Shown here: positions 17,868 through 41,932 of the stretch, piece by piece
Numbering within the stretch: the stretch's first letter is position 1
Layout: every line of letters begins with the position of its first letter
From: a virus
Strand: one strand, 5' to 3'
IMG/VR virus record: IMGVR_UViG_3300042691_037845
Location: 1-46,920 of that record
Length of the DNA: 46,920 nt
Program-made: the position numbers and the translations under genes
The notes under the pieces: model-generated
Told to the model about the DNA's origin: nothing
Seen by the model: the letters and a program-made list of their open reading frames with translations, nothing else
Database searches by the model: none

Positions 17868-17901
17868 GACGCACGGCATACTCCGGCGTTAGGCTGTGAG
17901 T

Positions 17902-18444
17902 ATGCCAACTGCCTTCCCACAAGAGAAGCCAAAAAAGAAGCCGGTCCGCGGCTACTTGGCCACCCCGCTGTCCCGCGACGAGCAGCGCCACGTTGATCGC
18001 ATGTACCGCGAACACGGCGGCCTCGTCAACCACATGGGCCGCAAGTTCTGCCGCAAATACCCCGCCCTCCTCAAAGAAGACATCTACAGCTGCATCAACA
18101 TCGCCTTCATCAAAACCTGCCGCGCTTGGAACCCAGAGAAAGGCACCTTCTCCACGATCTTCGCCATCTTTTGCGAGGGCGAGATCCGCCACTTCATCCG
18201 CGACCACAACTGGTCCGTCCGCGCCCCAAGCTCCGTCCGCTCGCTCGGCCTCCGCGCCCAATACATGCTCCGCGGCGGCGCCACCTTTGAAGCCGTCTGC
18301 GCCGAACTCAAAACCGAGTCCGAAGACCTCAAACTCGCCCTCTTCTCCGTCCAGTCGCTCGACCACGAAACCCAAGACTTCAAGTGGCATCTCTGCCCCC
18401 GCCCCACGCCCTGGGACGTCCTTGAAGCCTCAGAGGAAAACTAG
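17902..18444 (+). CDS. Sigma-70-like protein with region 2 and a region-3-like part, no region 4
   Basis: A 180-residue protein. Residues 39-113 follow sigma region 2: GLVNHMGRKFC, then EDIYSCINIAFIKTCRAW, NPEKGTFSTIFAIFCEGEIRHFIRDH, then VRAPSSVR. The FSTIFAIFCEGEIRHFIR stretch corresponds to the -10-recognition helix. Residues 128-158 (TFEAVCAELKTESEDLKLAL..SLDHE) resemble region 3. No region 4 or 1.2 is present. It should bind RNA polymerase and read -10-type promoters. I chose ATG 17902 over GTG 17896 for better spacing to AGG. A sigma gene inside the structural operon is unusual. It could instead be an HTH regulator. Confidence 0.75.
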   Translation: MPTAFPQEKPKKKPVRGYLATPLSRDEQRHVDRMYREHGGLVNHMGRKFCRKYPALLKEDIYSCINIAFIKTCRAWNPEKGTFSTIFAIFCEGEIRHFIRDHNWSVRAPSSVRSLGLRAQYMLRGGATFEAVCAELKTESEDLKLALFSVQSLDHETQDFKWHLCPRPTPWDVLEASEEN

Positions 18445-18467: not shown

Positions 18468-19229
18468 GTGGCCACTGGTTCTTTCTTCGCGGCGTTGGGC
18501 TATAAGCTCTACGTCAAGCTGGGCACCACGGCCAGCAACATCCCCACGACCTCCGGCGGGATGACCCGGATCCTGTCGCTGGACAACACCGGCATCCAGG
18601 GCACCTCCGAATCCACCTCGGTCGTTGACTACGACTCCGAGCAGGGCTTCCAGTCCAACCTCATCACGAGCCAGAGCTACAGCATCCCCTGCTCGATGAA
18701 CCTTGACGTCACCGACGGTGGCTACGAGATCCTCAAGAAGGCCGCCATCAACGCCGCCTCCGGCTCCCTGCTGGAGTGGTACCGCGAAACCCCCGTCACC
18801 GACGCCTCGGGCGACGACTCTGAAGTCCACGCCGGCCTCGCCCAGATCGGAGATTTCTCTGAGGATATTGTCGCAGGCAACGTGGCGAAGGTCAGTTTTA
18901 CCCTCACCGGCTACGGCGCCTATAAGTTCTACCCACAGGGCAACCCGATCGCCACGCTGACGATCACCACCGCTGGCTCGGGCCTGACCCCCGCCACCTA
19001 CACCGGCGTCTCGCTGATCTCCTCCAGCCCCGCCGCCGGCATCGGCTCCGGCAAGGGCGCCACCGCCACCATCATCGTTGCTGCTGGTGGCACGGTCACC
19101 GCCACCCCGACGATCGTGGCCGGCGGCACCAACTACCGCGTGGGCGACATCCTGACCGTGGCCCTGGGCGACGTCGGCGGCGCCGGCGGCGACGTAGTCC
19201 CCACCTTCACCGTCGCCACCGTAAGCTGA
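18468..19229 (+). CDS. Major tail protein with C-terminal beta domain
   Basis: A 253-residue tail tube protein. Residues 1-157 read as a tube domain: YKLYVKLGTTASNIPTTSGG, a loop with STSVVDYDSEQGFQSN, then strands and LTGYGAYKFYP. Residues 158-253 form a Gly/Thr/Ala-rich extra domain (ATLTITTAGSGLTPATYTGV...GGTNYRVGDILTVALG), a repeat-type beta fold found as decoration on tail and fibre proteins. GTG start; a strong terminator follows. Its position before the tape measure supports the call. Confidence 0.85.
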   Translation: MATGSFFAALGYKLYVKLGTTASNIPTTSGGMTRILSLDNTGIQGTSESTSVVDYDSEQGFQSNLITSQSYSIPCSMNLDVTDGGYEILKKAAINAASGSLLEWYRETPVTDASGDDSEVHAGLAQIGDFSEDIVAGNVAKVSFTLTGYGAYKFYPQGNPIATLTITTAGSGLTPATYTGVSLISSSPAAGIGSGKGATATIIVAAGGTVTATPTIVAGGTNYRVGDILTVALGDVGGAGGDVVPTFTVATVS

Positions 19230-19248: not shown

Positions 19249-19276
19249 AGCCGCCTCTAACCGGGGCGGCTTTTTT
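19249..19276 (+). terminator. Intrinsic terminator after the major tail gene
   Basis: AGCCGCC, loop TCTAACCGG, GGCGGCT followed by TTTTTT (stem 19249-19271, T-run to 19276). The T-run overlaps the end of the convergent gene (19275). It therefore separates the major tail transcript from the inverted neck genes. Confidence 0.9.
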
Positions 19277-19712
19277 ATGCCTTGCCGCCACCGGCCAGCT
19301 CGCGCCAACGCTGCAAAAAGAACGGCTTAAACGGCTTCTGCTGGAGCGCCGCACCAATCCAGTTCCGGGGTTTGGCTACCGCTCCACTCGCCGTCACAAA
19401 CGAATCCTGCTGGACCGCTGCCGCATACGGCGCCGTCCACCGAATCGTCAGCACACTCATCATCCCGTCCCGCACCACCACTGGCTCGGTCTGCGAATTC
19501 AACAGCGTTCCGGTGTCCACAATGTCCCGCTTGCCCTTGGGAACAAACTTTCCGCTGTACAGACCGATGCGCCGATACGTCGGCGACGGCCAGTCCCAGT
19601 TCCGCGCCAGTACCTGAGCCCGCGCCTCATCAGCAATCTGCGGCCCAAACTCCCGCAAAATCTTGTCCGACCTCGCCAGCAGCTCCTCTGCGTTCCAGCT
19701 TTTAATCCGCAT
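19275..19712 (-). CDS. Tail completion / HK97 gp10-like protein, inverted
   Basis: A 145-residue protein. Features recall the HK97-gp10 group of tail completion proteins: an N-terminal helix (WNAEELLARSDKILREFGPQIADEARAQVLA), a middle VDTGTLLNSQTEPVV (the 'D-T-G-x-L-x-x-S' motif), and APYAAAVQQ near the C-terminus. It would cap the tail end that joins the head. The gene is on the minus strand, opposite to all neighbouring structural genes, and overlaps the next inverted gene at its start (TGATG). The orientation implies its own promoter, probably the box at 20115-20130. Confidence 0.78.
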   Translation of the reverse strand: MRIKSWNAEELLARSDKILREFGPQIADEARAQVLARNWDWPSPTYRRIGLYSGKFVPKGKRDIVDTGTLLNSQTEPVVVRDGMMSVLTIRWTAPYAAAVQQDSFVTASGAVAKPRNWIGAALQQKPFKPFFLQRWRELAGGGKA

Positions 19713-20104
19713 CAGCTCTGAACCCTGCTGGCCAGCCGAATCTTGGTCCCCAACGCACTGTTGAGCACCGACCCAATCAGCCCAGTCTCCCCATAGGGCA
19801 ACCGCACCTCCAGCACCTCGCAGTCCTGCGTATCCTGCCCGGCAAAGTCAATAGTGCCTGACGTCCCCACCTTCACCCCGGCATCGAGCGTCCCAGTCGT
19901 CACATACCCCTCAAACAGCGTCGTAATAATGTTCACCCCTGGATAGGTCGTCTCCGCCACGCTCTCCCCCTTGAGGAATGCCCCCACCTGCACGGTGGTC
20001 GTGTTGGCTACGACGTTCCCCGTCTCAGCATCCACCGTTGTCCCAGCCGCTGGCACGGTGAAAGTCACCGTCGCGTTCTGCAATCCCACCAGCGCCGAAG
20101 CCAC
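19712..20104 (-). CDS. Probable head-tail adaptor/stopper, inverted
   Basis: A 130-residue, beta-rich protein with a GTG start (MASALVGLQNATVTFTVPAAG...). Strands such as TTVDAETGNVVANTTTVQVGAFLKG and a C-terminal VLEVRLPYGETGLIGSVLN suit head-closure or adaptor proteins, which often read 'T..G....V...V.V.A.L'. Coupling to the gp10-like gene supports a neck role. Family identity is not certain. It begins the two-gene leftward unit inside the late region. Confidence 0.6.
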   Translation of the reverse strand: MASALVGLQNATVTFTVPAAGTTVDAETGNVVANTTTVQVGAFLKGESVAETTYPGVNIITTLFEGYVTTGTLDAGVKVGTSGTIDFAGQDTQDCEVLEVRLPYGETGLIGSVLNSALGTKIRLASRVQS

Positions 20105-20174: not shown

Positions 20175-23021
20175 GTGGCAGAGCAACTAGGCGAAGCGGT
20201 ACTAAGTCTAAGCGTAGACCTAGAAGGTTTTAAGAAGCAACTAGATACAGCCCGCTCCATCGCAGAAAAACAAAAACCCGTCACCTTTAAGTTCGACGTA
20301 AGCAACGCTCAACAGCAATTCCGCAAGCTAGAAACATCTGCAAAAACACTTGAAGCACAGTTCAACAAGCTACTTGGCACACCCCTAAATCTTAATGCCA
20401 AAAACCTAGAGAAACTAGGAAGCGACGTCCTTAAAGCCGGGACGTCAATCAATGACTTTACTCGCAGTGTAATCAACGGCGAAAAGCCCCTTGCCAACAG
20501 TGTTGCATCACTGCAGCAGCAAGGCCAAGCGTTCCGGACCCTAGCTGCAAACGTAAAGATAGGCAGCGCCGAATTTCGCAACTTTACCCAAGCAGCTGCC
20601 CAAGCAAACCAAAAGCAACTGTTTGCAGGCTTTGAAGAAATAAAGTCGCTGCAAAGTCTGTTCAAATTAGGCAGCCTTGGTGAACAAAGCAGCTTCAAGG
20701 GTACAGAAGACCTCCTAGCGTTCAGCCGCAGAATTGGCGACACACCTGCTGCAATCAACCTTTACACCCAAGCGCTCCAGCAGGCGCTCAGCGTCACCTC
20801 CGTAACCGACGCGAACTTTGCCAAGCTCACCGCCGAGATTGAGCGACAAGCTTCTGCCCTGGAACGCGCCCAGAGCGCTGCCTCGCGTTACAACCAAATC
20901 TTCGGCGCCCAACCCAAAGCGTTGCCGCCCGGACGCGGTCCCAGCCAGTTCGTCTTCTCCGCAGAAGAAACCGCAGAAGAGCGCCGCGCTCGCGAGCGCC
21001 GCGAACGCCGCGCCGGCAAAATTCAGGACATCCAAAACTATGCCTCCACCGGCGGCCGCGACCCCCTGTCCGGCTTCGGCCGTCTTCTAACCGCTCCCAA
21101 CGACGCCGCAATCCGCGCCGAGCAACAGCTTGCACAAACACGCCTCAGTGTTGTTGACGCCACCACCAAAGCAACCAATGCCGAGGCTCGCCAAGCCGCA
21201 GCAGCGCGAAGGCGCGCAGCGGGCGGCGCAGGCGCCGGCGGAATCATCAGCTCCGCTCTGATCGGCGGTGCATTCCCGCTGCTCTTCGGCCAAGGCGGTG
21301 GTGCGGCAGGCGGCGGCCTTATCGGTGGCCTTCTCGGTGGTGCTGCAGGCGGTGGCGGCGGCTTTGCCGGCAGCTTGGTCGGCACCCTCATCGGCCAAAC
21401 AGCCGACAAATTTGGCGAGCTGGCCAAAGCACTAGACAGCCCCAGCCAAAACCTGCAGACCTTAATTCAGAACTCAAACCTCAGCAGCCGCAGCATTGAG
21501 GAGTTAGCAAAAACTCTCACCGAGCTGGGACGGACTGCCGAAGCCGATGCCTTACTCCGGGCCGATCTAACACGCACCATTGACCCGATTGGCGCCGCCA
21601 AGGTCGCGGCCGCCAACGACTCGTTCGCCCGCAGCCTCGGCGATCTCCAAGAACGCTTGGGCTACCTGCTCGCAGGCCCCGCAACCCAGTTCATCGGCTG
21701 GCTCGACGGCATCATCCAGCGCGTCGTAAACCTGCCGGGGGGAACTCCCACAACCCGCGGCGCTCTAGCGCTACGCGGCCAAGGTGCCGCCTTAGGAAGC
21801 CTAGGCGTTCTATTAGGCGCAACTGGCTTGGCCGCCGCACCCTTCACAGGCGGAGCAAGCCTACCCCTAGCTCTAGCTGGTGCGGGCCTTGCCGGCGTGG
21901 GCGCAACTCAAATCGGAACCGCAAGCTTCCAAGAAGAGCAGATCGGAGAGGCGACCCTACTCCAAAAAGTACAGAACGACATCCTTGCTATCGAAGAGCG
22001 TCGTGCCCGTGTGCAGCGCGACATCGCCACTGCTATTGCGGTAGGCAACACAAGCGGCGCCGCAAATCTTGGACTACAAAACCAACTGCTTGATCTTGAG
22101 ATAAAACGGCAACAAGCCAGGCAGCGTTTCTTTGCCCGCGATCTTAGCGCCGAATCGGCAAAACTATACAAAACTGAGCTGGCCGCACTAGGCGCTATAG
22201 AGAAAGCGTATAAAGAAACCGAAGCGCAGCGTCAGCTTGCATTGAAGGCGACTGCAGCGCTACAGCAAACACAGAACCAGCTTGCTTTAGATTCAATTAA
22301 AAGTCAGATAGCTGCGGCTGAGCAACTAGCAGGCATACGCGGACCTGAACAGCGTCGCGCCTTTAAAGAAGCACAAGGCATCCAGCAACGCATCGCAGAC
22401 GCTAGACGCCGCGAACAGGAACTGGGGGCGCAAATAACGGCAGCGCGGCAAGTCGGCAATGAAACCGAAGCGGTTCGGCTAGTAGGCGAGCAGAACGTCG
22501 CCGCACAACAAACAAAGCTCGCACTCATTGAAGGCTCGGACGCCCTTACTCAAGCCGGCATCAAGCTGCGCGAAGACGCCGACGCAGCATTCCTCAGCCT
22601 GCAACGCCTCCGCACTGGTGCGGGCGGCCTCAACCAATTCCTCAGCCCCCAAGACCGCGTCAACCAAGAGCGCCAGACCTTCGAGACACTGCTCCCCCGC
22701 TTCCGCGTTGCCCAAGAGCAGTTCAAGCAACTGCGCGGCGTCAACTACGCCCCCGAGTTCACCGGCACCACCGCCGGCATCAACCAGTCCATCCTCCAGT
22801 TCATCGAGGCAATCAAAATTGAGCAACAGGCCGTTGATACCTCGGTCGATACGCAACAAGCGCTTAACCTGAACACGGAAAGACTCGCCACAGTCAATGC
22901 CGACCTCGCCGCCAAAGTGGCCGAGCTGAACGCCAAAGAATGGGTTGTGCAGGTCAGCGCAAACGTCCCATACGACGCGCAGTCCCAGTTGGAAATTAAC
23001 CGCGCCTCCAGCATTCCATGA
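20175..23021 (+). CDS. Tape measure protein
   Basis: A 948-residue protein predicted to set tail length and reach the tail tip. It is helical throughout, with hydrophobic, Gly-rich stretches near residues 345-410 (GAGGIISSALIGGAFPLLFG...AGSLVGTLIGQ) and 525-575 that could enter a membrane. Coiled coils flank them, and Gln/Arg-rich helices fill the C-terminal third. At roughly 1.5 Angstrom per residue a tail near 140 nm is expected. GTG start. The first ~600 nt use more A/T-ending codons than the rest, hinting at a mosaic origin. It overlaps the next gene as ATGA. Confidence 0.93.
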   Translation: MAEQLGEAVLSLSVDLEGFKKQLDTARSIAEKQKPVTFKFDVSNAQQQFRKLETSAKTLEAQFNKLLGTPLNLNAKNLEKLGSDVLKAGTSINDFTRSVINGEKPLANSVASLQQQGQAFRTLAANVKIGSAEFRNFTQAAAQANQKQLFAGFEEIKSLQSLFKLGSLGEQSSFKGTEDLLAFSRRIGDTPAAINLYTQALQQALSVTSVTDANFAKLTAEIERQASALERAQSAASRYNQIFGAQPKALPPGRGPSQFVFSAEETAEERRARERRERRAGKIQDIQNYASTGGRDPLSGFGRLLTAPNDAAIRAEQQLAQTRLSVVDATTKATNAEARQAAAARRRAAGGAGAGGIISSALIGGAFPLLFGQGGGAAGGGLIGGLLGGAAGGGGGFAGSLVGTLIGQTADKFGELAKALDSPSQNLQTLIQNSNLSSRSIEELAKTLTELGRTAEADALLRADLTRTIDPIGAAKVAAANDSFARSLGDLQERLGYLLAGPATQFIGWLDGIIQRVVNLPGGTPTTRGALALRGQGAALGSLGVLLGATGLAAAPFTGGASLPLALAGAGLAGVGATQIGTASFQEEQIGEATLLQKVQNDILAIEERRARVQRDIATAIAVGNTSGAANLGLQNQLLDLEIKRQQARQRFFARDLSAESAKLYKTELAALGAIEKAYKETEAQRQLALKATAALQQTQNQLALDSIKSQIAAAEQLAGIRGPEQRRAFKEAQGIQQRIADARRREQELGAQITAARQVGNETEAVRLVGEQNVAAQQTKLALIEGSDALTQAGIKLREDADAAFLSLQRLRTGAGGLNQFLSPQDRVNQERQTFETLLPRFRVAQEQFKQLRGVNYAPEFTGTTAGINQSILQFIEAIKIEQQAVDTSVDTQQALNLNTERLATVNADLAAKVAELNAKEWVVQVSANVPYDAQSQLEINRASSIP

Positions 23022-23815
23022 CCGTCACCCTCGGCTCGTTTACCTGCAACCTCCTGACGGTCCAGCCGTTCGGCTACGAGGGCGAGGCCCGCACCGGCCT
23101 TACTGCTCGCTCGTTCCAGATCAGCGGCCTCGTCACCCCGGCCCAGTGGCAGCTGCTGCTCAGCTCCTACGACGCCTGGCGCAACACCCGCATCACCGAC
23201 CAGGACACCCTCCTATCTGGAACGGTCGGCACCACCATCGCCCTGACCGCCAATGCCAATGGCGTCAGCATCAACAGCCTCGCCTGCTGGTTCACCGAAC
23301 CACCCACCGGCGAGCAAACCGGCGCCTACATCTCCGCCAGCGTCACCCTCGTTGACGCCGCCCAGGCCCTCCAAGTCCTGCTGCGCGAGCAGGAAAAGAA
23401 TCGCCAGAGCACCGAATCCAACCTCCCCAGCTTCGGCAGCTGGTACATCGTCACCGGCACCCCAGACAAGATCGTCCCCTCGCTCGGCGTCGGCGAAACT
23501 GCAGCAGCCACCATCGTGCTGACCGCCGACCCAGTGACCTACCAAGACGGCCCTACGCTGGGCCTCACCACCACCGGAGCCCACGTCATCCAAGGCCCGC
23601 TGACCGCCACCAAAATCCGCCGCATCGAAGGCACCACCAGCAGCGCCAGCTGGGCCGTGATCCAGACGTGGTACGAGGAAGTGGTGGCTGCTATCCCGGC
23701 AGTCAACAGTTGGTTCCCCATTTCGCCGCCCACCGCCACCGCCGAAATCATCATCAGCGGCGGCGCCAAGAGCACCCGGTACACCGTCAGCTTTGACCTG
23801 GCGCTGGTGAAGTAA
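23018..23815 (+). CDS. Distal tail-type protein
   Basis: A 265-residue protein immediately after the tape measure. The N-terminal region (TVTLGSFTCNLLTVQPFGYEGEARTGLTARSFQISGLVTPAQWQLLLSSYDAWRN) and a C-terminal sandwich (TATAEIIISGGAKSTRYTVSFDLALVK) fit a tail-tip protein that contacts the tube and hub. The phrase ISGLVTPAQW resembles ISGLITPAIG in the next protein, so the two may share an N-terminal domain. It overlaps both neighbours (ATGA at 23018; stop/start TAATGG at 23815). Confidence 0.7.
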   Translation: MTVTLGSFTCNLLTVQPFGYEGEARTGLTARSFQISGLVTPAQWQLLLSSYDAWRNTRITDQDTLLSGTVGTTIALTANANGVSINSLACWFTEPPTGEQTGAYISASVTLVDAAQALQVLLREQEKNRQSTESNLPSFGSWYIVTGTPDKIVPSLGVGETAAATIVLTADPVTYQDGPTLGLTTTGAHVIQGPLTATKIRRIEGTTSSASWAVIQTWYEEVVAAIPAVNSWFPISPPTATAEIIISGGAKSTRYTVSFDLALVK

Positions 23816-26142: not shown

Positions 26143-26577
26143 ATGGCCGTTACCGTCTCGATATTCGACCACACGGCCCAGCGGTTTGCCTCGGGCGCCA
26201 ACGCTTCATCCGACGCTTACAAAGTGGCGCTCTACACCGCCGCTACTTACCTAGCCTCTGCCACAACGCTGGCCGGCATCACAAAAACCGAGGTCGCCAG
26301 CGGCAACGGTTACACCACCGCAGGCGCAACTCTTGCCAGTGTTGCAGTTACCACTGTCACTACAAACGACGCCAAGTTTGACGCCAACGATGTGAGCTGG
26401 ACCGTCCCAGCAGGCGGAAGCCTTGCTGCCGCTTACGCCATCCTCTACAACGACACTGACGCCAACGACCCACCAGTCCTCTTTATTGACTTTGGTGAAA
26501 CCATCACTACCACTGACGGCGGTATCTTCCAGATCATCTGGAACGCCAGCGGCATCTTCACCTTCACGGTGACCTGA
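26143..26577 (+). CDS. Tail-associated beta protein
   Basis: A 144-residue protein (MAVTVSIFDHTAQRFASGAN...). Alternating Thr/Ala/Val strands, the phrase VASGNGYTTAGATLASVAVTT and the end GGIFQIIWNASGIFTFTVT resemble small phage tail proteins that occur in pairs downstream of hub genes. It is preceded by a CCTAGGAGTAAG box. Its composition matches the next gene, so both may be subunits of a tail-tip appendage. Confidence 0.65.
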   Translation: MAVTVSIFDHTAQRFASGANASSDAYKVALYTAATYLASATTLAGITKTEVASGNGYTTAGATLASVAVTTVTTNDAKFDANDVSWTVPAGGSLAAAYAILYNDTDANDPPVLFIDFGETITTTDGGIFQIIWNASGIFTFTVT

Positions 26578-26578
26578 T

Positions 26579-26983
26579 ATGGCACTCACCACTACCGTTA
26601 GCCAGAAGGAACTCGCCCGCGTCGCCAACCTGGCCTACGAAGGCGAGACGCTCAAAGTCATGCTCTGCTCGGTCGGCGCCACCGGCTACACCGCCGAGAG
26701 CACCGTGGCCAACTGGCAAAGCGTTGAAAAGAGCGGCAATGGCTACGTCCGCTTCAGCAGCGTGATCGCCACTGGTGCCTACGACGCCACCGACGCCCGC
26801 TACGAGATTCCCGCCATTGACGCCGCCTTCACAGCCACTGGTGCGGGCTATTCCTACGACCGCGTTGTGGTCTACATAGACGGCGCTACCTACATCCACA
26901 GCCTGATTGTCGAAGACCCCAACATCACGCTGGCGGCTGGGCAAACGCAGACCTACCGGATCCAGCTTGTCACCGACGACTAG
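26579..26983 (+). CDS. Tail-associated beta protein, partner of the preceding gene
   Basis: A 134-residue protein, one base after the previous stop. Strands (TLKVMLCSVGATGYTAEST, GNGYVRFSSVIATGAYDATDARYEIPAIDAAFTATGAGYSYDRVVVYI) and the end AAGQTQTYRIQLVTDD resemble phage virion proteins with 'GNGY.R' motifs. The same GNGY phrase is in the preceding protein, suggesting duplication and divergence. Confidence 0.65.
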   Translation: MALTTTVSQKELARVANLAYEGETLKVMLCSVGATGYTAESTVANWQSVEKSGNGYVRFSSVIATGAYDATDARYEIPAIDAAFTATGAGYSYDRVVVYIDGATYIHSLIVEDPNITLAAGQTQTYRIQLVTDD

Positions 26984-26985
26984 CC

Positions 26986-28161
26986 GTGAGCACCCAAATC
27001 AATGTCACCGTTGGGTCGGGCGGCTTACCTGACAAGGCCAAGCAACAGCAACAGGCTGCCCGCCAGGCCCAGCTAGAGAAAGAGCGCCAGCGCCGCATTG
27101 AAGCCGAAGGTGCCGACAAACGCAACGCCCGCCTCGCCGCCGACGGCCGCAATGTCCAAGGTCAGTCTCTGACTGGAACGCCCAACGCAGCACCGCGCCC
27201 GCAGGACGAGCCAGCGGCATTTCGGAGTGCCAACGATGATTACTTGATGCTTCTACCTAGCGGCGGCGTTCAAACAGGCATACCATTCCCGCTATCAACC
27301 TATCTAGATGCTCTAGGTCAGTGGACACCCCGGTGGGGAAATTTAATTAACTCCAATAGTATTGTCTACCAACAACAAGGAGGACCGTCTAACAGCCCAG
27401 CTTTAAGCACGGGGCCGGATCAAACTACTACTAATGATTTGATCGGTGGAACCGCAAACTTTTTTCCCGCTGATTCTAAATCAAAGTTTACGAACGGAAT
27501 ACTTAAAAATTTTACAATTGAGTTCTTTCTGCGTTGGCCCTCGTTTCCTAATACCACTTACAGCTTCGACTCCTTTCAACTGTACTGCTCAAATATACCT
27601 AATTTTGCTGGCCTTAGCGATTTAGAAATTAAAATCCAGCGGGGCGTGGATCCATCCGGCATTGATTTTAGGTATGTGACTATTATTGTCCAAAGTCCGT
27701 ACTACCCGCCTAGCGGCTCGCTTGGGCCCACAGTTTTTACAGGTGCATATAACCTAGACCCGGACCGCGTACCCCTAAACGACCCAGGCAGCGCCGGGTA
27801 CGTTGACGGTGCGCTAAATCCAGTTGTTGACCTGCAGTGGCAGCATTACGCACTTGTATCCAAGCAGGTGCCTGGTGTCGCTCCAGGGTCGTTAAGACAA
27901 AAATTATCTTTTTACATAAACGGCGTTCAATATTCAGGCAGCGTTGGAGCCTCTGGCTCCGACTCTGTGTTCTGGGAGCCCCCAAGTGGAGCTGACAGTT
28001 ATCAGTTAAGTGTAGTAGAAAATGAAAACCGTTTAGACATAGCATTTGGGGGCACTGGAGGTGGAACTTATACCGGCCCTATGAAACTGCATGGCCTTAA
28101 GATGACACCTAAAGCTTTATACGACGGTAACTTTACGCCGCCTGCGCGGATACGACCATGA
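26986..28161 (+). CDS. LamG/concanavalin-like tail adhesin
   Basis: A 391-residue protein with GTG start. Residues 1-80 are a basic coiled stretch (KAKQQQQAARQAQLEKERQRR) that probably anchors it to the tail. Residues 155-385 look like a laminin-G/ConA-like lectin: FTIEFFLRWP, EIKIQRGVD, WQHYALVSKQ, LSFYINGVQYSGSV, LDIAFGGTGG, KLHGLKMTPKALYDG. This fold binds surface sugars. From about base 27240 the DNA is clearly richer in A/T and uses different codons than the N-terminal part, a sign that the adhesin domain was exchanged. It overlaps the next small gene as ATGA. Confidence 0.75.
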   Translation: MSTQINVTVGSGGLPDKAKQQQQAARQAQLEKERQRRIEAEGADKRNARLAADGRNVQGQSLTGTPNAAPRPQDEPAAFRSANDDYLMLLPSGGVQTGIPFPLSTYLDALGQWTPRWGNLINSNSIVYQQQGGPSNSPALSTGPDQTTTNDLIGGTANFFPADSKSKFTNGILKNFTIEFFLRWPSFPNTTYSFDSFQLYCSNIPNFAGLSDLEIKIQRGVDPSGIDFRYVTIIVQSPYYPPSGSLGPTVFTGAYNLDPDRVPLNDPGSAGYVDGALNPVVDLQWQHYALVSKQVPGVAPGSLRQKLSFYINGVQYSGSVGASGSDSVFWEPPSGADSYQLSVVENENRLDIAFGGTGGGTYTGPMKLHGLKMTPKALYDGNFTPPARIRP

Positions 28162-28280
28162 CCGCCCCTGACCCACGCCGCCTGAGCCAGCAGCTCAAGA
28201 TCCAAACAGCAGCCAACCGCTATGCCAAGTTGCTGCAGGACAGTGCGGCTAGAGTGATAGCAAAGATCGTCAACAGCTAA
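28158..28280 (+). CDS. Microprotein (40 aa) before the tail chaperone genes
   Basis: MTAPDPRRLSQQLKIQTAAN then a basic amphipathic helix ending IAKIVNS. The start overlaps the adhesin stop (ATGA) and the stop overlaps the chaperone start (TAATG), so it is translated in series. No function can be assigned. Confidence 0.6.
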   Translation: MTAPDPRRLSQQLKIQTAANRYAKLLQDSAARVIAKIVNS

Positions 28281-28858
28281 TGCTGCCGTTCATCACTCCG
28301 CCCGCAGCACCGACCACCCGCCGCGTCGGCAACGACCGCTGCGGCATCCTGGAGCTAGAGGTGCGGGGCGGCCTCACGGTGGGCGAATCCGCCACAATCG
28401 CCGAACTCCTTGCCGGCGAACAGTCCAGCTTCGTGCGCGGCGCCCAGATCGCCGACGCCATCGCCAAGGAGGAAAACCTCAGCCTCACCGAAGCGTTCCA
28501 GATTATCGAAAGCGCCATAGGCGGTCGGACATTGGAACCCGAAGCCGACGCCATTCGCCTGCGCCACGCCGAGCGCATTGACGAGGTGGGTCGTGTCTTC
28601 GCCCTCGCAGGCCGCCGCGACCGCGAAGCCACCGTCACCGCCCTAATCCGCTCGCGCTGCAACCAGCCCGGCTGGACCCTCGAAGAAACTCAAAACCTCG
28701 ACCAAGCCCTGTTTGACGACATCTGGGCACTGGCTCGGGACGAGCAAGACGCCGAAGACATGCCGTCGGCCCCGCCCACCGAGGAAGAGCTAAAAAAGCA
28801 GCCGCCGGAGCAACCGGCCGCCAAGAAACGCCCTGGGCCGAAATCTTCTGGGAGCTGA
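28280..28858 (+). CDS. Tail assembly chaperone, short (zero-frame) product
   Basis: A 192-residue protein of gpG type: a beta start (RCGILELEVRGGLTVGESATIAELLAGE), a helical core (IADAIAKEENLSLTEAFQII...DEVGRVFALAGRRDREATVTALI), and an acidic, Pro-rich tail (EDMPSAPPTEEELKK). Such proteins coat the tape measure during tail assembly. Codons 171-173 (CTA AAA AAG) contain the slippery heptamer A AAA AAG. Normal decoding ends 19 residues later; slippage yields the longer product. The gene sits after the tail-tip and adhesin genes instead of before the tape measure, which is atypical. Confidence 0.78.
   Translation: MLPFITPPAAPTTRRVGNDRCGILELEVRGGLTVGESATIAELLAGEQSSFVRGAQIADAIAKEENLSLTEAFQIIESAIGGRTLEPEADAIRLRHAERIDEVGRVFALAGRRDREATVTALIRSRCNQPGWTLEETQNLDQALFDDIWALARDEQDAEDMPSAPPTEEELKKQPPEQPAAKKRPGPKSSGS
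28792..28818 (+). promoter_or_regulatory. -1 programmed ribosomal frameshift site
   Basis: A AAA AAG at 28792-28798 is in the proper zero-frame phase (CTA AAA AAG). Five bases later GCCGG, loop AGCAA, CCGGC (28804-28818) forms a GC hairpin, and a purine-rich AGGAAGAG (28782-28789) lies just upstream, like the internal ribosome-binding stimulator of dnaX. The -1 frame is open from here to 29451 and contains no ATG, GTG or TTG before 28918. Confidence 0.85.
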
Positions 28859-29451
28859 GCCACGCCTACCCAGGCACCTTTGAGCGCCGCACTTTCCACG
28901 GCGAACTCCGCACCGTAGTGCTGGCCGCTTGGCGCCATCTCCACAAAATCCGCCGCGATCTCGCCTCACTACAGGAGCTACCTATCGCGGCGCTCCAAGC
29001 CATGACGGCCAACATCAACCGCGACCCCAAGAAGACCAAGCCCTTCACGGCGCTGGACTTCGCCATGTACCGCGAGCGCGAAGCCGACGACAAGGTGCTT
29101 CCCCCACAAGTGGCCGCCACCGTGCTGGCTCTCCGCGCCGAGCGCAAGGACGCCCCAATCCTGCTCGCCGCCTGGGACAAAGTCCTCGCCAGCGCCGACA
29201 GCTCCGCCACGCCTCCGGCGGTAAGAGCGCTGCACTCCGATGACCGCATGGCCTGGATCGTCTGCCCCACTTGGGAAGGCAAGAATATCCGCGCCGGCCT
29301 CATCGCCATCGGCGACGCCCTTTCCGGCCCCATCACCCTGCGCGACGTGGATCGCCCGCTTGCCACCTACACCGTTACACTGCCGAACCGCAACACCTTT
29401 GCCTGGCTTGAAACCAATCTGCTGTTGGTCGCCGGAACATCGGAAAACTAG
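28798..29451 (+). CDS. Tail assembly chaperone, -1 frame extension (gpT-like half of the G-T fusion)
   Basis: Read after slippage this adds 217 residues to residues 1-173 of the upstream protein (390 in total). Real coding starts at once: TPWAEIFWELSHAYPGTFE then RRTFHGELRTVVLAAWRHLH, then a domain ending WLETNLLLVAGTSEN. A separate start at GTG 28918 would cut away the conserved-looking WAEIFWELSHAYPG stretch, so frameshift expression is preferred. In lambda-like phages the extension domain binds the tail tube protein while the G part binds the tape measure. Confidence 0.8.
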   Translation, partial: AAAGATGRQETPWAEIFWELSHAYPGTFERRTFHGELRTVVLAAWRHLHKIRRDLASLQELPIAALQAMTANINRDPKKTKPFTALDFAMYREREADDKVLPPQVAATVLALRAERKDAPILLAAWDKVLASADSSATPPAVRALHSDDRMAWIVCPTWEGKNIRAGLIAIGDALSGPITLRDVDRPLATYTVTLPNRNTFAWLETNLLLVAGTSEN

Positions 29452-29475: not shown

Positions 29476-32400
29476 GTGAATCTGCTGGAACTACGCACTG
29501 AGCTAGCTTCCCTGCTGTCCGCGTCGCTCGGCACCTACACGCTGCCCAACGGCGACACCACCCCCGCCATCTCCGTCCGCTCCAGCGGCGAAGCTCTACC
29601 CACTGGCACGTCCGTCACCGGTCTAGAGGTGGTGCTGATCCGTGACCCGGATCTAACACCCATCCCGCAGTACACCGACTCCGGCGCGCTTCGCAGCTGG
29701 ACGGTTTTCTTAATTGACTGGAGCGACGCCACCGACCTAGAGCCGATCGGCGCCTACCTCGTCGAGGCATACCCCGGCACCCAGGTCACCACCGTCGCGG
29801 TGCCCAAAGGCACCGGCCCGCAAAACCAAATGCGGGTCACCATCCAGTCGGTCGCCCAACCGCCCGAAGGCTTTCCGGCCTACGACCCAGTCCGCTTCCC
29901 TACCGTCTCGGCCCTCGGCTTCGAGACTGACGCCAACATTGACCCGGCCCAAGGCCAGATCACCTGGGAATCAGACACCAGCACTCTGATCCTCGGCCTG
30001 ACCGACAACGTCGATCTCCATCTCGGCGCCGACCAGATCACCCTCTGCCGCAACAACAGCAACTCGGTCGCCATTCCCAAGGGCACCGGCGTCATGTTCG
30101 CCGGCACCGTCGGCAACAGCGGCCGCCTCAAGGTCGCCCCAATGGTGGCCAACGGCACCTACCCCGGCTACGTCTTCTTCGGCGTCACTGCCGAAATCAT
30201 CCCTGCCGGCGGCGACGGCTTCGTCACCTCCTTCGGCAAAGTCCGCGGCGTCAACACCACCGCCTACACCGAAGGCGACATCCTCTGGTGCGACCCAGCC
30301 ACACCAGGCGGCTTTACCGCCACTGAGCCCACAGCTCCCAACCTCAAACTCCCCGTCGCCGCCGTCGTCCACGACGCCAACAACGGCATCCTGATGGTCC
30401 GCTGGAACGTCGGCTCCCGCCTCCGCGACCTCCACGACGTTGAATCCGCTTCCGCCACTAACGGCCAAGTCCTGGCCTGGAACACAGCCGCCAGCCGCTG
30501 GTCGCCCGTTTCCCCCAGCTCGGGCGCCACTGGCCCAGCCGGCGCAACCGGCGCCACCGGCGTAGCCGGAACGATCGGCGTTGATGGCAGCACCGGCCCC
30601 ACCGGAGCCACCGGCCCCCAAGGCGCCACCGGCGCCGCCGGCACCATCGGAGTTGACGGCAGCACTGGCGCCACCGGCGCCACCGGTGTAGGAACAACCG
30701 GCGCCACAGGCGTTGCCGGCCCCTCCGGCCCATCGGGCGCCACTGGCCCCAGCGGCCCCGAAGGCCCCACTGGAGCGCAAGGCACAGCCGGCGCCGACGG
30801 CGCAACCGGAGCCACAGGCGCCACTGGCCCCATCGGCATCACCGGCGCCACTGGCGCGGGCTCCACTGGTGCCACAGGAATTGCCGGTGCAACCGGAGTT
30901 ACTGGTCCTGTCGGTGCAACAGGTATCGGCATCACCGGAGCCACCGGTATTCAAGGAGCCACTGGACCCTCGGGCCCCACTGGTGCGACCGGTGTCCAAG
31001 GTAGCACCGGTCCAGAAGGCCACACTGGCGCAACGGGCGCCACTGGCGTCATCGGTATTACCGGTGCCACGGGCGCCATTGGCGCTACCGGTGTTGAAGG
31101 CCCTACGGGAGCATCAGGTGTAACTGGCGCCACCGGTCCGCAAGGCGCTACAGGTGTAGGCATAACCGGCGCCACCGGCGTTTCCGGCACAGTTGGTTCT
31201 ACAGGCGCTACAGGAGCAGGCGCCACCGGCGCTACCGGCCCAACCGGTGCTAATGGAGTTGATGGTGCTACAGGTCCCCAAGGAAGCACAGGTGCATCAG
31301 GTGCCACTGGCGCCACCGGAGTCCAAGGCAGCACAGGTCCCATTGGCATCACCGGAGCCACCGGCGCGACCGGCGTCATCGGTGTTAGTGGAGCCACAGG
31401 TCCTGCCGGTGCTACTGGCATCGCAGGCCCCACCGGAGTTACAGGTGCCACCGGTGCGACCGGTGTTCAAGGCGCCACAGGTGTTGGGGTCACCGGCGCC
31501 ACCGGAGTGGCAGGTACTGACGGCGCTACCGGTGCTACCGGTATAGGTATAACCGGAGCCACTGGTGCGTCCGGCGTCAACGGCGCCACCGGCGCAACAG
31601 GAGTTGGCACCACAGGCGCCACCGGCGTAGGAACAACCGGCGCGACGGGAGCCACTGGTGCGGCGGGCATCAGCGCCTCGGGCCGCATCTGGTACTTCCG
31701 CCAGACCAACTCCGACATCAGCGGCTACGAGTCGCTCCAGCCGGACACCCCCGACTCAGATCCGACTGACGATATGACGGCGGTTGTCGTCGACACCAGC
31801 GGTCAAGTTATTATCGAGGAATTTGCTACCGATGCGGGCGATCCAAACCTAAGTGAAATTCCTGCCGGTGAATACGAATGGCGTTTTTGGGCGTATGTTA
31901 GCGACAATATCGGTAGCACGAATCTAAATTTCAAGGTATATAAGCGCAATACCGGTGGCACCGAGACGTTCCTGTTTGAGCTTGATGGACCCGAAATCAA
32001 CGCCACGTCAAGCAACTATTACACGGCACTAATTGTTGCAACGAGCGTAATTCCTCTCGACCCGACTGATCGAATCGTAGTCAAGGTCTACGCCGAGACG
32101 ACCCACACCAGCAACGTCACCGCTCACTTCCTTCACTCGGGCGCCACCCCCAGCAGCATCCGTACTGCCATTACCCAGGGCTACGTCGGCCCCGTCGGCG
32201 CCACCGGAGCTACAGGCGTCGCCGGCCCCACTGGAGCGACAGGCGTTGCCGGCGCTTCCGGTGCCACTGGCCCCGCCGGAGTCACAGGCGCCACCGGCGC
32301 CGCAGGCATTGATGGAGCCACTGGCGCCACGGGTGTCGCAGGCGTAGACGGCGCTACGGGCGCAGTTGGTGTTTCGGGCGCCACCGGAGTCCAAGGTGCC

Positions 32401-33786
32401 ACTGGCGCCACCGGTGTCCAAGGAATTACGGGCCCCACTGGAGCTACAGGCGTCGTTGGCGTTTCTGGTGCAACTGGCATACAGGGAGCTACAGGAGTCC
32501 AAGGCCCCACCGGAGCGACCGGCGTTGTAGGCGTATCCGGCGCCACAGGTGCCACAGGTGTTGAGGGACCTACCGGTGTCATCGGCGTTTCAGGAGCCAC
32601 CGGAGCAACGGGAGTTGTCGGTGTTAGTGGAGCCACTGGTGCGACCGGCGTTGTAGGCGTATCCGGCGCCACGGGTGTTGACGGCCCCACTGGTGCGACC
32701 GGAGTCATCGGCGTCTCTGGCGCCACCGGCGCCATCGGATCTACAGGCCCCACTGGTGCAACTGGCGTTGTCGGTGTTTCCGGCGCCACCGGAGTTCAAG
32801 GCGCCACCGGTGTAGAAGGTCCAACCGGAGCCACTGGCGTTGTCGGTGTTTCTGGGGCTACCGGTGCCACGGGTGTCCAAGGCCCCACTGGCGTCATTGG
32901 CGTCTCAGGTGCAACGGGAGCCACTGGTGTTGTCGGTGTATCTGGCCCCACTGGTGCGACCGGTGTTGTTGGCGTTACAGGCGCCACTGGTGTGATCGGA
33001 GTCTCTGGTGCAACAGGTGCTACGGGTGTCATTGGCGTTAGTGGTGCCACTGGCGCTACCGGAGCTATTGGAGTTTCTGGTGCAACAGGTGTCGTAGGCG
33101 TATCCGGTGCAACCGGCGTCATCGGAGTGAGTGGTGCAACAGGCGCCACAGGGGCTGGTGTTACCGGCGCAACAGGTGTCGAAGGTCCTACAGGTGCAAC
33201 TGGGGTTACCGGGGCGACGGGTGTTGGTGTAACTGGAGCCACGGGTCCGCAAGGTGCCACTGGAGTAGGCGGTGGCGGCGGCGGCTTTACATCAAGCACT
33301 ACCGCACCAACATCTCCAAATGAAGGAGATGAGTGGCTTGATGAGAATACGGGAACTTTATACACTTATTTTATAGATTTAAATAGCACTTCACAGTGGG
33401 TTGAGCTAGGACCTACTCCAATTGGCTTTCCTGGGGTGACCGGGGCGACAGGTGTTGGCGTGACTGGCGCTACAGGCGTTACTGGTCCCGCACTGCTTGG
33501 CATCCCGGCATCGGCGAATACGACGATTGTGGCAAGCGATGCCGGTAAACATATCAATACGGCCGCAGGAGTCACGATTAATGCTAGTACTGCATTCGCT
33601 GTTGGCGATATGTGCGTAATCTACAACAACTCGGCGGCTTCTATAACGATTACAGCCACTGGCGTCACCCTACGCTTTGCTGGAACTGCGTCGACTGGCA
33701 ACCGGACATTGGCGCAGCGAGGCTTGGGTAATATACTATGCGTTGCCAGCAATGACTACGTTATATCTGGCGCTGGTCTGACATGA
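29476..33786 (+). CDS. Collagen-like long tail fibre
   Basis: A 1436-residue protein with GTG start. Residues 1-348 form an N-terminal attachment part with beta-rich segments ([50 protein letters not shown]). Residues 349-731 are Gly-x-Thr/Gly-x-y repeats (GATGATGV-type) expected to form a triple helix. A globular insert (732-905, with [35 protein letters not shown]) follows, then a second collagen-like block (905-1263) with frequent [12 protein letters not shown]. The C-terminus (1264-1436) has a small exposed domain and a beta end. Trimeric host-receptor fibre is the likely role. The long antisense frames here are by-products of the repeats. Confidence 0.88.
30523..33265 (+). repeat. Collagen-like coding repeats in two blocks (30523-31668, 32190-33265)
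   Basis: Nine-base units encode Gly-Ala-Thr and variants. The peptide repeat is regular but third codon positions vary widely (GGC/GGT/GGA with ACC/ACT/ACA/ACG), so long identical DNA stretches are rare. The blocks are separated by an insert (31668-32190) that is richer in A/T. Confidence 0.85.
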
Positions 33787-40762: not shown

Positions 40763-41041
40763 ATGGCACTGGCTGAGTGGCTCATCCCCAAACCCAGCCT
40801 CGCTGCTCAGGCCCAGTACCGGCACACCTGCGACATCCTCCGAAGCGAAGGCCGAGAGAACATAGACCGCGTCATTGACTTGGCCTGCTCGCTCGCCCAA
40901 CAGAACATGCTGCAGCAGACCATCATAAGGCAGGCGACCCAGCACATTGGCGAGCTGGAGCTGATTTCCCTTTTAATGGAAGCCCCGCCCCGGCGCCCCA
41001 CACTCGGCCAGCGCCTGGCTCGCCTGCTGGGTCGTGAATGA
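40763..41041 (+). CDS. Small helical protein, tail-to-tail with the sigma factor gene
   Basis: A 92-residue protein (MALAEWLIPKPSLAAQAQYRHT...). Amphipathic helices (IDRVIDLACSLAQQNMLQQTIIRQATQHIGELELISLLME) and a basic tail (RRPTLGQRLARLLGRE) are visible. It runs rightward between leftward genes and overlaps the last 69 nt of the RpoD-like gene on the opposite strand. An upstream CTAGACT box and coherent helical composition support reality. Function unknown; a link to the sigma factor is speculative. Confidence 0.55.
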   Translation: MALAEWLIPKPSLAAQAQYRHTCDILRSEGRENIDRVIDLACSLAQQNMLQQTIIRQATQHIGELELISLLMEAPPRRPTLGQRLARLLGRE

Positions 41042-41932
41042 ATTGGCCACGGCCATGTAATGCCGCATCTTCCGATGCGCCACCCCCAAAATTTGCCGGA
41101 CCCGCTCCCGGCTAACTCCCATCTCCCGCCCCAGCTCCGAGTACGTCTCCGACACGTCCGTGCCCAGCCCCCAATACCGCTTCACCAACTCCGCCTCCTT
41201 GTCCGTCAAGTGCTGGAACGCCCCATCCAGCATTGACTGCATCTCCATCTGCTCCGCCTGCCGCATCGACTCCGTCCCCGCAGGATCAAGCGGGTCACAG
41301 ATCAAGTCTCCCAGCGAGCTGCCCTCGCCCTCCAGCGCCACCTTGTCGAGTGAGTAGACCTGTTGCCCTCGGTTGATGTACAGCCGCACGTCCTCGACAG
41401 TCACACCGAAGTGCTTAGCCATCTCCTCGGTAGTCGGCATCCTCCCGTGACGCTGCCCCAACTCCTGGATCGCACTGCTCCAGTTGGCCGCCATCTCGGC
41501 AATCTTCCCAGGCAGCCGCACCACCCGCTCCTTGGTCGAGATCGCCCGAGCCATTGACTGCCGGATCCACCAGTACGCATAGGTGCTGAACTTGTACCCC
41601 CGCGTTGGATCGAACTTCAGAACCCCGTGCATCAGGCCAATGTTGCCCTCCTGCACCAGATCCATCAGCTCCATGTGGGTCACCACGCGGTAGTACCGCT
41701 TGGCCACATTGACGACCAGCCGCAGATTCGCCTTAACGAAGTGCTCCACCGCTCGCTCGCCGATGCGAACCTCGCGCCGCTCCTTAGGCGTCAGCTCCCG
41801 CTGCTCCTCCTTCAGCGCCACCATCCGCTGGATCTTCCGTCCCAGGTCGATCTCCTGGTCGCTGCTCAGCAGCGGCGTCCGCCCGATCGCATTGAGATAT
41901 GCCTCGACCGAGTTCGCCTTCGGGTAATGCAC
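40973..41932 (-). CDS. RpoD-like (group 2 type) RNA polymerase sigma factor
   Basis: A 319-residue factor that should redirect host RNA polymerase. Region 1.2 (NSVEAYLNAIGRTPLLSSDQ), region 2 (NLRLVVNVAKRYY, DLVQEGNIGLMHGVLKFDP, GYKFSTYAYWWIRQSMARAI), region 3 (PTTEEMAKHFGVTVEDVRLY) and region 4 (LTDKEAELVKRYWGLG; YSELGREMGVSRERVRQIL, residues 263-281) are all present, close to cyanobacterial group 2 sigma factors. The C-terminal 25 residues after region 4 are unusual. GTG start, because region 1.2 begins right there. The upstream gene overlaps its start by about 150 nt. Confidence 0.95.
   Translation of the reverse strand: MHYPKANSVEAYLNAIGRTPLLSSDQEIDLGRKIQRMVALKEEQRELTPKERREVRIGERAVEHFVKANLRLVVNVAKRYYRVVTHMELMDLVQEGNIGLMHGVLKFDPTRGYKFSTYAYWWIRQSMARAISTKERVVRLPGKIAEMAANWSSAIQELGQRHGRMPTTEEMAKHFGVTVEDVRLYINRGQQVYSLDKVALEGEGSSLGDLICDPLDPAGTESMRQAEQMEMQSMLDGAFQHLTDKEAELVKRYWGLGTDVSETYSELGREMGVSRERVRQILGVAHRKMRHYMAVANSFTTQQASQALAECGAPGRGFH

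Follow-up and report, generated by a model that had tools for sequence, protein, structure and literature searches.

Sequence evidence for probable programmed −1 frameshifting between tail assembly chaperone genes in an uncultured cyanosiphovirus-like phage

An uncultured cyanosiphovirus-like phage very probably uses a programmed −1 ribosomal frameshift in its tail assembly chaperone genes; from the sequence and its relatives, we infer the slippage, the product ratio and the chaperone function. Frameshifts of this kind are already known (the lambda G/GT class), and what is new here is a well-conserved case in a clade for which the phage collection searched has no close isolate. The window (the whole stretch of 46,920 bases analyzed, from an IMG/VR virus record) carries a structural module of siphovirus type, chiefly on the plus strand, with terminase, portal, minor head, scaffold, major head and adaptor genes, and a tail-tube-like protein at 18468-19229. 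The only unusual elements are a change in gene order and the fusion of a terminator-like domain to a collagen-like protein.

The slip site and its conservation

A preliminary description of this DNA, made from the letters alone, had placed an A AAA AAG heptamer within a 192-aa ORF, followed by a −1 frame open to 29451 that would give a 390-aa fusion. Both the sequence and the coordinates of the heptamer proved correct, and the open frame and fusion length were confirmed (Table 1). The heptamer lies 57 nt 5' of the zero-frame stop, and the −1 frame is open from 28717 to 29451, reading AAAGATGRQETPWAEIFWELSHAYPG... from 28798, such that the fusion comprises 173 + 217 = 390 aa. An in-phase A AAA AAG or G GGA AAG is expected only about 0.004 times in the 48-codon overlap, which, together with conservation in relatives, places the heptamer beyond chance. 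Between the zero-frame stop and GTG 28918, differences show a third-position excess in the −1 frame (46% of differences). As also described earlier, there is no usable start before this GTG: it is the first ATG, GTG or TTG in the −1 frame, at +126 from the slip, and the bases preceding it (ACGGCGAACTCCGCACCGTA) contain no Shine-Dalgarno sequence. Homologues of the short ORF that overlaps the start of the 192-aa ORF occur directly before G in several close relatives.

Table 1. Coordinates of the frameshift pair and associated features in the window
Feature	Position	Strand	Details
Probable tape measure protein	20175..23021	+	948 aa; upstream of the frameshift pair; presumed client
40-aa ORF	28158..28280	+	Stop overlaps start of the 192-aa ORF (TAATG)
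Zero-frame ORF, G-like tail assembly chaperone (role by arrangement)	28280..28858	+	192 aa
Slippery heptamer A AAA AAG	28792..28798	+	In phase; codons CTA AAA AAG at 28790-28798
−1 frame after slip, T-like part of the predicted fusion	28798..29451	+	217 aa
Third cassette member, probable tail-terminator (gpU-like) N-terminal domain	29476..29880	+	AlphaFold2 pLDDT 88
Largely collagen-like rest of the same 1,436-aa ORF (29476-33786)	29881..33786	+	Pfam Collagen E 8e-26

The −1 protein has relatives in IMG/VR and in the cyanophages S-CRES1-3, S-CBS2 and PSS2. Comparison of homologues, which had been put forward as a check on the frameshift, was decisive. The frame switch and a heptamer in the same phase, either A AAA AAG or G GGA AAG, are kept at the junction in 78 of 78 loci in which the match covers it (window included), and no locus (0/78) has lost the heptamer and left the two ORFs separate. 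Five additional loci (L091-L095) matched over short stretches only and were left out of the 78; G GGA AAG was also present in two of them. Among 66 distinct T sequences, G GGA AAG was found in 41 and A AAA AAG in 25, with at least five switches between the two forms on a maximum-likelihood tree of 61 fusions, a tree that includes the slip residues themselves (2 of ~400 columns, whose removal would probably make no difference). The codon before the slip, usually Leu, co-varies with the heptamer, being CTA with AAA AAG and CTG with GGA AAG. For Leu, changing this third base leaves the zero-frame protein unaltered, so that few explanations of the swap other than selection for slipping suggest themselves. 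The two heptamers have thus replaced one another repeatedly without loss of phase, a clean natural experiment that points to selection on slipping.

Alternatively, the pair could represent two separate genes, with translation of the downstream ORF beginning at GTG 28918 on its own, or re-initiating, and the A run being incidental. This start does exist, many close relatives also have a GTG at +126, and in deposited cyanophage records the second gene is given an internal start: in those of S-CRES3, S-CRES1, PSS2 and S-CBS2, T begins ~40-70 codons after the slip and is not joined to G. However, the +126 start is missing in several relatives, where the first start instead falls at +264 to +513, and a conserved IFWEL..FPG block precedes any −1-frame start, most relatives having no start before the conserved T region. 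Many loci have a −1 frame that opens just a few codons 5' of the slip, so there is no room for an earlier start. Considering also the absence of a Shine-Dalgarno sequence at GTG 28918 and the retention of the heptamer at every junction, independent translation of the second ORF is very unlikely. A second ORF that overlaps in the −1 frame and lacks a start of its own, as found here, is characteristic of G/GT-type chaperones. The heptamer is followed immediately by the zero-frame stop in S-CBS2, S-CRES1 and related marine contigs.

Predicted products and their relation to known chaperones

The −1 part resembles Phage_tail_T and is probably a divergent relative, judged by matches across the family. 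Under a loose limit (E up to 0.5), 34 of 38 members of the −1 family matched Phage_tail_T (best E 1.6e-5), while the window member alone scored 14 bits against a curated cut-off of 25.9. The window −1 part also matched phrog_34388, which is of unknown function (E 6e-12), and S-CRES records name the T homologue a tail assembly protein. The zero-frame protein is conserved in all relatives. It had no informative match among families, PDB sequences or PDB folds, and its best viral structure matches were unnamed or uncharacterised proteins; its G-like role is therefore assigned by arrangement and not by homology. The earlier reading, in which frameshifting extends a G-like protein into a T-like one, is strongly supported, the likeness to G being one of arrangement.

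The tail assembly chaperones gpG and gpGT of lambda have been reviewed previously (PMC5009743). The likeness lies in a zero-frame protein accompanied by a rare −1 fusion, which is predicted here, and in a shifty heptamer close to where the first ORF stops. The T part here is putatively related to Phage_tail_T, as in gpGT, but the first protein is without detectable homology. The lambda heptamer, G GGA AAG, is the form present in most relatives here, whereas the window has A AAA AAG; G_GGA_AAG and the A-run heptamer are both highly shift-prone in E. coli (PMC5009743). Based on this arrangement, the majority of ribosomes would complete the 192-aa G-like protein, while a minority, with tRNA-Lys on AAA and AAG, would shift back one base at A AAA AAG into the T frame and yield the 390-aa GT fusion. 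If the lambda model applies, the tape measure protein may be coated by the abundant G-like part, and the T part of the rarer GT may deliver the major tail protein to it, with both G and GT departing before the tail is completed.

Orthologous pairs are present in S-CBS2 (gp015/gp016), in S-CRES1 and S-CRES3 (gp72/gp73, gp79/gp80) and in PSS2, with 25-30% identity in T and the heptamer at the same place as in the window. The predicted G/GT frameshift is thereby extended to an uncultured cyanosiphovirus-like group as well as to S-CBS2, S-CRES1, S-CRES3 and PSS2, whose records leave the genes unjoined. No close isolate of the window clade was found in the phage collection searched, and a DNA-level search of phage records was empty. 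The genome collection scanned for hosts gave one MAG contig only (PBTG01000079.1, or L096; 74,693 bases, from a Myxococcales MAG). This contig is probably phage sequence binned into the MAG, and no host follows from it. It equals viral contig L089 in length and has a frameshift pair of the same kind.

Gene order and the terminator-collagen fusion

In siphoviruses, the chaperones are usually encoded between the major tail protein and the tape measure (PMC3706429). This place is a matter of habit and not of definition, and in the window clade the pair is found elsewhere: the lambda-type order runs major tail protein, chaperones, tape measure, whereas the pair in the window follows the probable tape measure and tail genes. 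Throughout the window clade the pair is likewise downstream, with tape-measure homologues upstream of it in all 23 loci where they were detected (23/23), and the tail gene at 23815 likewise in 40 of 41, that is, in all but the marine-type locus L090. By contrast, the pair comes ahead of the genes for the major tail protein and the tape measure in S-CBS2, S-CRES, PSS2 and related marine contigs, the tape measures being annotated in isolates. The 948-aa protein of the window had no match in phage records, no PHROG and no direct family match, and its identity was for this reason taken from its neighbors: the genes after it are homologous to those after a large tape-measure-like ORF in L090, making it a probable tape measure. 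More genes lie between it and 28161, several of which are tail-like judged by relatives. Within this stretch, an adjacent gene pair at 26143-26983, each member matching phrog_644 (function unknown), is apparently a tandem duplication.

A third gene is located directly 3' of T in nearly all clade members and ~0.4-0.6 kb after T in marine ones. In S-CRES3, S-CRES1 and S-CBS2 (L010, L011 and L013), T and the terminator homologue are separated by an HNH endonuclease gene on the minus strand, which overlaps the 3' end of T. The first 135 aa of the window's third gene are probably a tail terminator with a gpU-like fold, according to the predicted structure. Top Foldseek matches of this domain in the PDB were mostly phage neck, collar and terminator chains, none of them strong by itself, with a best E of 3.3e-3 and none below E 0.001 (lambda gpU, E 0.23, prob 0.60). 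Counting runs of at least 8, the full ORF includes 219 Gly-X-Y triplets. Fusion to collagen is common to the window and three relatives (L016, L020 and L021), while the terminator domain stands alone in most relatives, and in S-CBS2 (gp018), S-CRES1, S-CRES3 and PSS2 the homologue is a separate gene, unlike the fusion in the window. The fusion is a feature of the window clade and separate from the frameshift itself. The terminator-collagen protein could plausibly be a neck fiber.

It is somewhat more likely than not that, across this clade of uncultured cyanophage-like siphoviruses, the chaperone pair, with the terminator traveling alongside, lies in another place than in marine cyanosiphoviruses, following the tail genes and breaking the usual order, and that in some members the terminator became the base of a collagen-like protein that could form neck whiskers. 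With a chaperone-terminator cassette displaced in this way, one could ask whether tail assembly depends on gene order around the tape measure.

The position of the cassette in the window clade, 3' of both the tail genes and the probable tape measure and directly 5' of the terminator-collagen gene, could also suggest that the frameshifted chaperone serves another client, such as the adjoining terminator-collagen protein, and not the tape measure. However, in S-CBS2-type phages the block of G, T and terminator comes ahead of the genes for the major tail protein and the tape measure, and collagen is absent from the terminator protein in most members of the clade. Moreover, no other chaperone candidate turned up beside the probable tape measure of the window, with 19275-20104 being filled by two minus-strand genes. 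Service to a client other than the tape measure is accordingly very unlikely. The two minus-strand genes separate the tail-tube-like gene from the probable tape measure, at the spot where chaperones are usually found, and their order is kept in relatives; one has a weak tail-completion/Neck1 match and the other has no assigned function.

Sequence context of the slip

The preliminary description had also drawn a GC hairpin after the slip and noted a purine-rich stretch before it. The hairpin can be drawn, its main stem running from near 28804, but shuffles of the sequence fold about as stably (z -0.15, -0.92 and +0.66 in three folding windows), and the structure is not conserved. Folding of 47 distinct contexts gave a mean z of -0.45, and an RNAalifold consensus across relatives contained 4 pairs and no covariation. 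Covariation of a hand-drawn CAG-CCG/CGG-CTG stem likewise did not exceed that of shuffles. A stimulatory hairpin is thus unsupported by energy, conservation or covariation. The purine stretch (GAGGAAGAG) ends near the slip and overlaps conserved Glu/Asp codons. In E. coli, dnaX has an A AAA AAG frameshift with a purine-rich stretch upstream. The heptamer of the window is identical to that of dnaX and also has a purine-rich stretch upstream, although dnaX concerns other genes and another product logic, and the window has no supported stem-loop and a purine stretch closer to the slip.

The run of six A in the window raises the alternative that RNA polymerase, and not the ribosome, changes frame by slipping on the homopolymer. 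Six A is a short run for polymerase slippage, and most relatives have G GGA AAG at the same place, without a long homopolymer, making this explanation extremely unlikely compared with ribosomal frameshifting. An assembly error or gene decay as the source of the frame change has a negligible probability: a single contig could carry an indel, but 78 loci, deposited phage genomes among them, switch frame identically at this position, which refutes such an origin.

Two sigma-factor-like genes are encoded in the window, one at 17896-18444, inside the structural module, and the other at 40973-41932. The former also contains an in-phase A AAA AAG, at 17931.
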